Below are positions 46,596 through 49,817 of a stretch of DNA of 49,849 nt, one piece after another. The DNA is from Candidatus Caenarcanales bacterium. Lineage in GTDB: Bacteria > Cyanobacteriota > Vampirovibrionia > LMEP-6097. The DNA lies in the NCBI GenBank assembly GCA_947459525.1, contig CANHDW010000003.1, forward strand, positions 1 to 49,849. Direction: 5' to 3'. Numbering within the stretch: the first letter of the stretch is position 1; each line of letters opens with the position of its first letter. The notes under the pieces were generated by a model. It ran no database searches. It was given only the letters and a program-made list of their open reading frames with translations, and was not told the origin of the DNA. The position numbers and the translations under genes are program-made.

Positions 46596-46782
46596 AGGGC
46601 TGCTTGCAATCTTTAAGGTACTTGTTGTCGAACTTTAAGCTCTGCATTTCTTAAAAAATTTTCATAAAAGATAATACCGTATGAAGGACTTTTAACTTTG
46701 TAATTACTAAATAGGGTTTATACTACTTCTTGTAAGCGTTTGATTGATTTAAAAAAAATTAGTTAAACGTGACTTCCTCACA

Positions 46783-46828
46783 CTTTTCCAAGTTTATGTA
46801 TTAAATTTGGTTGGCAAGTCCTTAAAAC
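46783..46828 (+). promoter_or_regulatory. conserved leader RNA motif, copy 1
   Basis: Stem CCAAGTTT (46788-46795) pairs with AAATTTGG (46803-46810) around a seven-base loop, followed by TTGGCAAGTCCTTAAAA. The same layout occurs at 47287 and 47509. Stem changes relative to copy 2 include a flipped T-A to A-T pair and a C-G to G-T pair, which support an RNA fold. This copy is two bases shorter in the second hairpin. I do not recognise it as a known riboswitch. Confidence 0.6.
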
Positions 46829-46850
46829 ACCTGAAATATTTTGAGGTGTT
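46826..46850 (+). promoter_or_regulatory. hairpin sequestering the ribosome binding site of the small gene
   Basis: AACACCT (46826-46832) is the complement of AGGTGTT (46844-46850), with an 11-base AT-rich loop. The Shine-Dalgarno GAGGTG for the ATG at 46853 is inside the right arm, so folding would lower initiation. The hairpin begins where leader motif copy 1 ends, so the two could be alternative folds. Confidence 0.5.
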
Positions 46851-46852
46851 GA

Positions 46853-47038
46853 ATGAGTCCATTTGTTTCTATTTTTGCGGCTGGTGCTTTAGGTCTTATG
46901 GGAGCTATGAGATCAGCTTCTTCTAATTTAAAGAGAAGTCATAATCCCCAACAAGATGAGCTTCCATTGGGCAATCAGCCTTCCCCGCGTTCACTGGCTT
47001 CATCTATATCGCAGTCCGCTGTATTGCGGCCAGCTTAA
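46853..47038 (+). CDS. small hydrophobic peptide, 61 aa
   Basis: The product starts MSPFVSIFAAGALGLMGAMRSASSN, a short hydrophobic helix with small residues, followed by a polar, proline- and serine-rich tail. It resembles the start of the peptide at 47632 (MNPLLISTFAALGVYFGAARLAQSA). Shared points are the third-position proline, the FAA cluster and the helix ending in A-x-R, so the two are probably paralogues. GAGGTG precedes the ATG and a terminator follows at 47062. Function unknown; a membrane-active peptide or leader peptide is conceivable. Confidence 0.55.
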   Translation: MSPFVSIFAAGALGLMGAMRSASSNLKRSHNPQQDELPLGNQPSPRSLASSISQSAVLRPA

Positions 47039-47061
47039 ACCTAAATAAACTAAACACAATT

Positions 47062-47098
47062 AACAAAGGCAAGAATGAAAATTTTTGCTTTTGTTTTT
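47062..47098 (+). terminator. rho-independent terminator of the 61-aa gene
   Basis: Eleven bases AACAAAGGCAA (47062-47072) pair with TTGCTTTTGTT (47085-47095), with one G-T wobble and a 12-base loop. Further T residues follow at 47096-47098. It lies 23 bases after the small gene's stop codon. Confidence 0.7.
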
Positions 47099-47157
47099 GG
47101 AGGCTGATGTATAGTGGGATTGCTTGTGAAAATATAAGTTCAAGGCAATGCTCGCAA

Positions 47158-47200
47158 GTGTGCAAGTTTAAGGCGGGGGGGCGAATGACCGCAAAATGTA
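47158..47200 (+). mobile_element. left-interior fragment of the interspersed element
   Basis: The run GTGTGCAAGTTTAAGG, seven Gs, then CGAATGACCGCAAAATGTA parallels the left interior of the element in argJ (GTGCAAGTTCAAGG ... GACGAATGACCGCAATGTAA). CGAATGACCGCA is identical to both full copies. Both ends are missing. A second shorter match to AAGTTCAAGGC precedes it at 47136-47146. Confidence 0.6.
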
Positions 47201-47268
47201 GCAGGCTACTTGCCTCTTTAAAAGATTAAATTATCCTAAACTCACTTGCCTAGCTGCATTAGAGGCTG

Positions 47269-47333
47269 TATAATAATCCTTCTATAACTTTCCATGTTTC
47301 TGTACCAAACATGGTTGACGCAAGTCTTAAAAT
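47269..47333 (+). promoter_or_regulatory. TATAAT box and conserved leader RNA motif, copy 2
   Basis: TATAAT at 47269-47274 is about 18 bases before the motif, so the RNA would sit at the 5' end of its transcript. CCATGTTT (47292-47299) pairs perfectly with AAACATGG (47307-47314) over the loop CTGTACC, followed by GAC-GCAA-GTC, a GNRA tetraloop hairpin. No gene like the neighbouring small peptides follows, so this copy appears orphaned or decayed. Confidence 0.6.
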
Positions 47334-47483
47334 GTTTAATTTTTAAACAGTAATTGAATAAAAATCTTCAAATGTGTGAGGAGAGGTTTTTTATTTTTAT
47401 TGTTTTCTTTTGAGGTTGATTTATACTGATCGAGGGAATCTTAAATAATTATAAACAATATAGTAATTATAAAGTCTCTGTAG

Positions 47484-47555
47484 TATTATAGTAAAAACCA
47501 AATTAATAACTTTCCGTGTTTCTGTACCAAATCCGGTTGGCGAGAGTCGTAAAAC
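47484..47555 (+). promoter_or_regulatory. TATTAT box and conserved leader RNA motif, copy 3
   Basis: TATTAT at 47484-47489 is 25 bases before the motif. CCGTGTTT (47514-47521) pairs with AAATCCGG (47529-47536) with one mismatch, over the identical loop CTGTACC, and GGC-GAGA-GTC forms another GNRA hairpin with a G-T pair. The third stem pair is G-C here and A-T in copies 1 and 2, a compensatory change. Confidence 0.6.
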
Positions 47556-47605
47556 TTTTAAAAATTAAAAACTATAAATCTTATTTACTGTGTGAGGAGG
47601 GATTT

Positions 47606-47635
47606 ATGTTTATATCTGGGGAGGTTCTTTTATGA
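47606..47635 (+). CDS. nine-codon upstream ORF
   Basis: ATG at 47606 follows GAGGAGGG with five bases between, encodes MFISGEVLL and stops with TGA at 47633-47635, overlapping the ATG of the 53-codon gene as ATGA. A second Shine-Dalgarno (GGGGAGG) lies inside it. It may couple or gate translation of the following gene. Confidence 0.4.
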   Translation: MFISGEVLL

Positions 47636-47793
47636 ACCCTTTGCTTATTTCTACTTTTGCAGCGTTAGGTGTTTATTTTGGTGCTGCTAGGTTGGCTCAA
47701 TCGGCTGCTTCTACTAGTAGCAATCAAAGTGCTGGTCTTAATGCTGCTCTTAAAAATAATCGTAAGGCAGCAATGCAATTGTGTGCATATTAG
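47632..47793 (+). CDS. small hydrophobic peptide, 53 aa
   Basis: ATG at 47632 with GGGGAGG (47618-47624) in front, stop TAG at 47791-47793. The product is MNPLLISTFAALGVYFGAAR, then a serine-, alanine- and asparagine-rich tail ending KNNRKAAMQLCAY. The N-terminal half is an alanine/glycine-rich hydrophobic helix like that of the 61-residue peptide at 46853, and both follow the same leader motif. No family is recognised. The convergent 670-residue gene ends 11 bases further on. Confidence 0.55.
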   Translation: MNPLLISTFAALGVYFGAARLAQSAASTSSNQSAGLNAALKNNRKAAMQLCAY

Positions 47794-47804: not shown

Positions 47805-49817
47805 TTAGCTAAAAGCTTGAGCTAATTGCTTTTCCTGAGCTCTGTTTCTCAGTTGGGTTGTTGCTACTATGTTGTTAGCAGAACTAGCCTGAATTTTCTC
47901 TTTGAGCGTATTCTTGAGATTAGCTGCTGATGCGATGTTGCTCGTGAGATTAGAGTAAATCTTGTTAGCTTCTTGTGATTTCCTGAACCAATCTGTGACA
48001 TTAAGTGGGGTTTTTAGAATGCTCTTCACGGCTAGGAGCAAGGTTTTCCCGATGCCAGTATCTTTATAGCTTGCTAAGTGATCTGGTAATTCCTTGGCGA
48101 AAACTTCTTCTTCTTTATCTTTGAATAATCCAGGTATATCCTTCGGAGTGCGTCCTGTTATTTTACTTGTGATTTGTTGAACAAGCCAGAATGGACTCGA
48201 TGCTGGGCTTAATTTTATTACAGCTGGATAAGTACCCACTGCGGCGTGGAAGTTTTTACCCCACCACATCCAGCCTTTTTTAAGGACGTTTATAAGTTCA
48301 GATAGCGGAGGTTTTATTAATGAATGAGAAACGAATTGAGTATCATTGTCAATGGCTCTCTTCTCTGATTTTGGCATAAAGCTCTGTACGAAAGGTGGAG
48401 CGATGAATTCCACAAGCATATTCAATAGAATAGACTTGGTGGCAGGGTTCAATACCTCGCCAGGTAGTAGATTCGATAAGCCTTTCATGAAATTCTGACA
48501 CATCGGCATTAGTAGTTTTTTCGGAATAATACTATGGAAAATGCCCATAAAGGATTCGCCTTTGCGAACTGCCGTGTGTGCGTAGCTGGTCATAGCGGAG
48601 TCTATGCGGTTTGCGTTACTGAGTATCATTGAGCTAAAGGCTTTTAGCGGAGTATTTGCATCTTGGAAGCCAGTCGCTTGAGCTTTTTTATCTAGTGTGA
48701 GTGCTGTTAAGCCAAGGCTGGCTAGGGATGTTATGCCGAAATGAATAGGGTTGAATTTTGCGAGTGATTTAATTTCTTCTTTTTTGCCATAAGAGTTTGT
48801 GGCATAGATGGTTTGACCTTCTGCATCTTTTAGTATTTCACCAGGTGTAATGCCAAGAAGGTATTTATTTACATTATTAACAAATGGATCAAGGACTTTT
48901 TTAAGATTAAAGCCCGCCTCTTCTTTGACTAATTCACCATTTCCTTTATTTATAATCTTAAATTTTTTTTCGCCATTTTCATCTTCCCCTCTTATCCACC
49001 CGATTAGTTTAGCTACACCAGTGTCTTTCATGGCTTCGATTATGAGTTGCTGCTCAGGACTCACGTCACCTCCATGGTTCGAAGAATTCGCGAGTATGTT
49101 ATTCTCAGCGGTAATAGTTCTTAAAATAAAGGTCAGTGGTCTTGCGACCATGTCACCAATAAGCGTATTAATTATTGGATATTTTTTAGCAAAATGAGGA
49201 AAAACTCGACGAAAAGTAGCTATAGATTGATCTACGCCGATGTCTGTGATTAGGCGTGATAGGAATGAGTCAGAGAAGGTCTTTTCAATATTATTGTTTA
49301 AAGCGTTATATTCTATACTATTTGGGTCAATTTTTGCGCTTTCAAGCTTTTTGATCTGCTGAAGAGTTGCTTCTCTTTCCGTCTCCGAAAGGTTGCCGGT
49401 TTCAAGAAGATTCTTTAATTCTTTACAGTGCTCATCTAAATTGTTGGATAGCTTGGTCGCGTCACCTTCTTGAATGATCGCATTTACTACTGCTTCTGCT
49501 GAGGAACTCGTTAATAAAGCATTAGTCCAAGATTTTAGAACACTTTCCCAGACTGAATAAATAAAGCTTTTGTTCCAATTTCGCTCGCCATAATAATTAT
49601 TAGCATGGTAGCCAGATATCGATTTATCGTAGATAGGCTCTTTATTTTTTTTGTTAATCTTATCAGACCTAGCAGAAGAGACTTCTCCCTTTAAACCTTG
49701 ATTAAAAGCTTTAGCGGCGTTAAAAATCGATCCAGTTGGCTCTGGGCTTGTTGCAGTATTTGGATTTATTCCTTGTTCTAGAAAGCTCTTGTTTGTACCT
49801 ATAGAAGTACTAACCAA
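47805..49817 (-). CDS. hypothetical protein, 670 aa
   Basis: The frame begins at TTG (49815-49817), directly after an in-frame TGA and eight bases downstream of GGGAGGG, so the start is well supported. I do not recognise any domain. The first 70 residues are polar and probably disordered. A charged helical stretch follows (LSNNLDEHCKELKNLLETG...LQQIKKLESAK), then several moderately hydrophobic segments (for example FGITSLASLGLTALTL and KSILLNMLVEFIAPPFVQSFM) and an alanine-rich helical end. There is no signal peptide. It may be a membrane-associated or effector-type structural protein; this is a guess from composition. Little else lies near it, apart from the two small peptides that converge on it. 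Confidence 0.7.
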   Translation of the reverse strand: MVSTSIGTNKSFLEQGINPNTATSPEPTGSIFNAAKAFNQGLKGEVSSARSDKINKKNKEPIYDKSISGYHANNYYGERNWNKSFIYSVWESVLKSWTNALLTSSSAEAVVNAIIQEGDATKLSNNLDEHCKELKNLLETGNLSETEREATLQQIKKLESAKIDPNSIEYNALNNNIEKTFSDSFLSRLITDIGVDQSIATFRRVFPHFAKKYPIINTLIGDMVARPLTFILRTITAENNILANSSNHGGDVSPEQQLIIEAMKDTGVAKLIGWIRGEDENGEKKFKIINKGNGELVKEEAGFNLKKVLDPFVNNVNKYLLGITPGEILKDAEGQTIYATNSYGKKEEIKSLAKFNPIHFGITSLASLGLTALTLDKKAQATGFQDANTPLKAFSSMILSNANRIDSAMTSYAHTAVRKGESFMGIFHSIIPKKLLMPMCQNFMKGLSNLLPGEVLNPATKSILLNMLVEFIAPPFVQSFMPKSEKRAIDNDTQFVSHSLIKPPLSELINVLKKGWMWWGKNFHAAVGTYPAVIKLSPASSPFWLVQQITSKITGRTPKDIPGLFKDKEEEVFAKELPDHLASYKDTGIGKTLLLAVKSILKTPLNVTDWFRKSQEANKIYSNLTSNIASAANLKNTLKEKIQASSANNIVATTQLRNRAQEKQLAQAFS

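Follow-up and report, generated by a model that had tools for sequence, protein, structure and literature searches.

A nearly fixed structured leader, possibly acting in cis, ahead of hypervariable small membrane-type proteins in Candidatus Caenarcaniphilales

Small hydrophobic proteins encoded behind a structured leader are familiar from type I toxin-antitoxin mRNAs of the Hok, TisB, Fst and AapA kinds. Within the cyanobacterial phylum, the downstream-peptide motif, a type 2 glutamine riboswitch of picocyanobacteria, precedes small-protein genes and often occurs in multiple copies (PMC6316151), and Yfr1 of cyanobacteria is marked by the core CUCCUCACAC (PMC2190773). Here we describe a locus from a non-photosynthetic cyanobacterial family with almost no known biology. 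It lies in the window, by which we mean the whole stretch of DNA analysed (49,849 nucleotides of contig CANHDW010000003.1). An earlier note on this DNA had described an unrecognised structured leader before small, paralogous membrane-type peptides, a description that is borne out by further matches in relatives, by the association with small ORFs and by covariation. The locus comprises the following features:

46697..46724, + strand: candidate promoter of unit 1 (TTTGTA, 16 nt, TATACT), a sequence match only, 8/12 (9/12 in two sister species)
46780..46827, + strand: motif copy 1, with an 8-bp hairpin, ATGTATT loop, weak second hairpin and TTAAAA (model R1, 64.6 bits)
46826..46850, + strand: predicted hairpin AACACCT..AGGTGTT that pairs the Shine-Dalgarno sequence of ORF 1 (7 bp, -10 kcal/mol, z -3.8)
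46853..47038, + strand: small ORF 1, 61 aa, hydrophobic N-terminus, hypervariable (frame-keeping indels, dN 0.5-0.8 against the sister species)
47062..47098, + strand: terminator-like inverted repeat behind ORF 1, with a T run, aligned across three species
47246..47274, + strand: candidate promoter of unit 2 (TTGCCT, 17 nt, TATAAT), 10/12 in all three species, -10 box at 47269-47274
47284..47333, + strand: motif copy 2, the closest fit to the consensus (R1, 73.2 bits)
47334..47432, + strand: remainder of leader 2, ORF 2 lost, with ATA at 47423 in place of the start codon (intact 54-aa ORF in sister species G002)
47484..47489, + strand: candidate -10 box of unit 3 (TATTAT), a weak match, 8/12
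47506..47554, + strand: motif copy 3, a match of covariance model R1
47606..47635, + strand: putative upstream ORF of 9 codons (MFISGEVLL), read from the sequence, overlapping the start of ORF 3 by ATGA
47632..47793, + strand: small ORF 3, 53 aa, hydrophobic N-terminus, hypervariable; its stop is the end (47793) of the region singled out by the earlier note
47805..49817, - strand: convergent gene for a 670-aa helical protein, the constant neighbour of the array

Predicted fold and distribution of the motif

All three motif copies that had been proposed are present in the window. Each contains TTTCC, a stem of 8 bp whose loop has 7 nt (either ATGTATT or CTGTACC), GGTT, another short hairpin and TAAAA, and the general plan of about 50 nt is an 8-bp hairpin with a conserved 7-nt loop, a TT linker, the second hairpin and a TAAAA tail. 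GNRA loops (GCAA, GAGA) close the second hairpin in copies 2 and 3, as had been noticed, and copy 1 carries a weak GG-CAAGT-CC without GNRA. The partial compensation reported for the stem is real: pairing holds for 97% of the stem cells over 13 distinct family sequences, whereas column shuffles give 85% and controls with one strand slid 27-50%, and two pairs per helix have changed on both sides (in stem 1, A-U to G-C and A-U to U-A); the alignment was fitted to the model and thus leans towards structure, and nine genomes amount to few independent events. When sequences are folded singly, a pair of adjacent hairpins is predicted for most relatives (z -1.1 to -3.25), with hairpin 2 varying between a few base pairs and a long, branched arm; copy 3 folded alone does no better than its shuffles.

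A covariance-model search of the lineage, proposed earlier as a check, was run with a model built from the three window copies (R1) and a second one built from 16 copies (R2). R1 found matches in all nine family genomes, spanning five genera, with 16 copies in total, one to three per genome, at E 1e-16 to 4e-6 and always at a single locus per genome. In a search of 289 genomes of the class, R2 scored E 1e-15 to 5e-10 for members of the family. Outside it the best values were about 0.005 (R1) and 0.011 per genome (R2), with nothing credible among the 289 genomes, and the weak matches at E 0.005-0.05 per genome are no more than chance would give. When 84,980 species were scanned for the exact pattern, 12 records came back, seven of them from the window's family and five near a chance expectation that we estimate at about 2 from base counts and higher in AT-rich DNA; two of these five are Clostridia with a common hairpin upstream of one gene, which matches nothing in Rfam. 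At gathering as well as permissive thresholds (E up to 10), the motif copies match no Rfam 15 family, and elsewhere in the region Rfam 15 gives chance-level matches only.

In viral contigs, the exact-pattern scan yielded four matches in two sequence groups, which is chance level. In these contigs (L079-L082) a perfectly paired 8-bp hairpin that starts with the same GTTTCTGTA stands a few dozen nucleotides before a gene start, and the complementary ACAGAAAC lies upstream of the hairpin; the resemblance is probably due to chance.

Throughout the family the array is followed by the convergent gene, which encodes a helical protein of 530-670 aa, and then by coaD, with thiL between the two in some genomes (coaD and thiL identified by eye). 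Upstream lies cimA in two genera and glmU in the others; contig G008:C176 ends before the upstream gene. The large helical protein is restricted to the family; it has no Pfam match above cut-off, nothing convincing in PHROG or PADLOC, no sequence match in the PDB and no fold-search match with E < 0.1. In G006 (L064, contig C37), two paralogues of the large protein flank both leader-ORF units, which suggests that the large gene belongs with the small ORFs to a single functional locus.

Conserved leaders and fast-changing small proteins

A homologous ORF of 53-65 aa with a hydrophobic N-terminus follows 14 of the 16 motif copies at a distance of 68-316 nt. These proteins open with a hydrophobic stretch of about 20 residues that lacks a leading positive charge, followed by a hydrophilic middle part and a tail of the form R-x-x-A-x-x-L-x-A, and their best 19-residue hydropathy (1.4-2.1) is N-terminal in every case. 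The relatedness claimed for the two window peptides stands in so far as one profile finds them all, but their likeness is weak and lies mainly in the hydrophobic start and the tail. With this profile, members were found in nine of nine genomes and almost only at the motif locus. A search of viral contigs found no relatives of the small ORFs, and the proteins had no PADLOC match and none above chance in Pfam. One unlinked member of the small-ORF family in G002 (contig C6, L119:5122-5325) has no leader motif; it sits downstream of a gene for a tyrosine recombinase-like protein (identified by eye).

Leader and protein differ sharply in rate. Between sister species, leaders 1-3 are 93-100% identical (0-7% differences), against 61-94% for the 100 bases upstream, whereas amino-acid identity of the small ORFs is down to 24-51% and their indels keep to multiples of three. 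The small ORFs reach dN 0.37-1.21 and dS 0.47-0.86 in these comparisons, compared with dN 0.01-0.02 and dS 0.34-0.42 for the nearby cimA and dN 0.06-0.09 for the large convergent gene; the small protein changes faster than every neighbour measured. Between G003 and G007 the small-ORF values are dN 0.17 and dS 0.21. Because the ORFs are short and the dN/dS intervals wide, several of them including dN = dS, we regard diversifying selection as likely and go no further, relaxed constraint or replacement of segments being alternative causes of the same pattern.

Two of the 16 motif copies, among them copy 2 of the window, have kept the leader and lost the ORF. The ORF 2 stretch is missing from the window species (G000), where ATA... 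is left, and from G001, where ATG TTG CTT TAG is left, and behind the second leader of G002 stand an intact ORF of 54 aa and a repeat resembling a terminator. The 50-nt motif of copy 2 is nevertheless identical in the sister species save for its last base, and leader 2 differs between the window species and G001 by 5 mismatches in 133 nt, against 19 in the 100 nt just upstream. Leader 2 may now serve as a second tandem leader on ORF 3, or act as an RNA.

Candidate promoters and ribosome sites

Sigma-70-like sites lie roughly 10-60 nt ahead of the motif in nearly all units. The -10 boxes noted earlier close ahead of two copies are plausible for copies 2 and 3 (47269-47274 and 47484-47489), and that of copy 1 is placed some 60 nt upstream of the motif. 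In G003, G004, G005, G007 and G008 the promoter-like sites have spacers of 17 nt and share a conserved block, AAGACTRGACA...NATAGAAC. Transcription would start ahead of each motif copy. No terminator was found between motif and ORF in the window.

The hairpin ahead of ORF 1 has an 11-bp counterpart before ORF A of G006 that likewise pairs the ribosome site. For the window genus and unit A of G006, predicted accessibility of the site falls below the median of the controls; in unit B of G006 it does not. Hiding of the ribosome site as a universal feature is ruled out by G003, G004, G005, G007 and G008, in which such pairing is not seen (unpaired 0.58-0.93, controls mean 0.53). The output step accordingly does not appear to be conserved, and translational control would apply to part of the family only. 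The 9-codon upstream ORF before ORF 3 is kept at the same length in G001 and G002, and its ATGA overlap with ORF 3 in three species suggests translational coupling.

Interpretation and relation to known systems

We give somewhat better than an even chance to the reading that this is a lineage-specific structured 5' leader acting in cis on hypervariable small membrane-type proteins, judging from comparative sequence data. Each unit would run from a promoter through the two-hairpin leader to a membrane-type protein of 53-65 aa and form a self-contained short transcription unit, in which the leader most likely sets translation start or mRNA stability in cis. The window genus and one relative have additional hairpins that pair the ribosome-binding site or lie beside it, so the output is likely translational there. 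The level would be set by a partner, whether protein, small RNA or small molecule, that recognises the A-rich tail and the conserved loop CUGUAYC. More tentatively, the leader could represent a ligand- or partner-sensing RNA class that governs small membrane proteins under diversifying selection, the RNA being fixed and the protein variable, possibly in an arms race, beside a lineage-specific large helical protein.

The conservation of copy 2 without its ORF in two species also fits a self-acting RNA. Under this explanation the RNA would itself be the functional product: a small RNA, dual-function or acting in trans, that uses its loop and single-stranded tail to pair with other RNAs, the ORF being a secondary passenger. 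The much stronger conservation of the RNA relative to the peptide speaks for it as well; every sequenced relative, however, has at least one copy before an in-frame ORF, no terminator stands directly behind the motif, and copy 2 may simply be the second tandem leader of the ORF 3 transcript. We hold this explanation to be unlikely, and equally so a strict metabolite riboswitch class, which the earlier note had also raised and which is the small-molecule special case of a cis-acting leader. The compact conserved loop, linker and tail, the family-wide conservation and the several copies would suit a riboswitch, for which the glutamine-sensing downstream-peptide leader on small proteins sets a precedent (PMC6316151), but Rfam has no match up to E 10, no expression platform was seen that is conserved across genera, and one locus with one gene family offers no hint of a ligand.

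Two further explanations had been raised by the earlier note. A toxin-like peptide agrees with the small size and hydrophobic N-terminus of the proteins, and tandem copies, the terminator-like repeat after ORF 1 and the ribosome-site pairing of some units would also be in keeping with a type I toxin-antitoxin-like array, in which a structured leader hides the ribosome site and a cis-antisense RNA is the antidote. No antisense candidate was found opposite unit 1 or unit 3, however: the sole minus-strand promoter-like site of a consensus scan is located upstream of copy 3 and has another sequence in G002, and such sites are no commoner than in shuffles. Since so fast a protein evolution is also unusual for these toxins and the PADLOC and Pfam searches gave them no support, we think such an array decidedly improbable. 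A small mobile cassette could draw on the tandem leader and ORF copies in the window genus and G006 and on the unlinked G002 relative beside a recombinase-like gene. It is contradicted by synteny, as in five genera each genome has the array at a single place, next to the convergent gene and then coaD, with local tandem duplication only. The motif is missing at the unlinked ORF, no transposase was seen in the array and the spread follows the lineage, and we give the cassette very little chance of being correct.

With the cis-acting leader that we favour, a little-known lineage of the cyanobacterial phylum would gain a structured RNA family that Rfam 15 lacks. A regulatory leader that is nearly fixed above a small protein that changes fast poses a puzzle, and the contrast points to an interaction under pressure, for example contact with phage, competitor or host.

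Compared with type I toxin-antitoxin mRNAs, the units are alike in the small hydrophobic protein, the structured leader, the tandem copies and some paired ribosome sites, and unlike in the 53-65 aa length with long hydrophilic tails, the very fast evolution and the lack of an antisense candidate. A resemblance to Yfr1 biology arises from GTGTGAGGAG, the exact complement of the Yfr1 core, in leader 3 (47590-47599), leader 2 (47374-47383) and unit B of G006. A reading as Yfr1 targets is ruled out, as the family yielded no intergenic gene of the Yfr1 type, with ACUCCUCACAC flanked by two hairpins, and the remaining occurrences of the core there all lie in or opposite long open frames. From the downstream-peptide motif, the family differs by the lack of a covariance-model match at the motif copies (E up to 10) and by another small-protein family; the two are alike as structured 5' leaders of the same phylum that stand, often in several copies, before small-protein genes.
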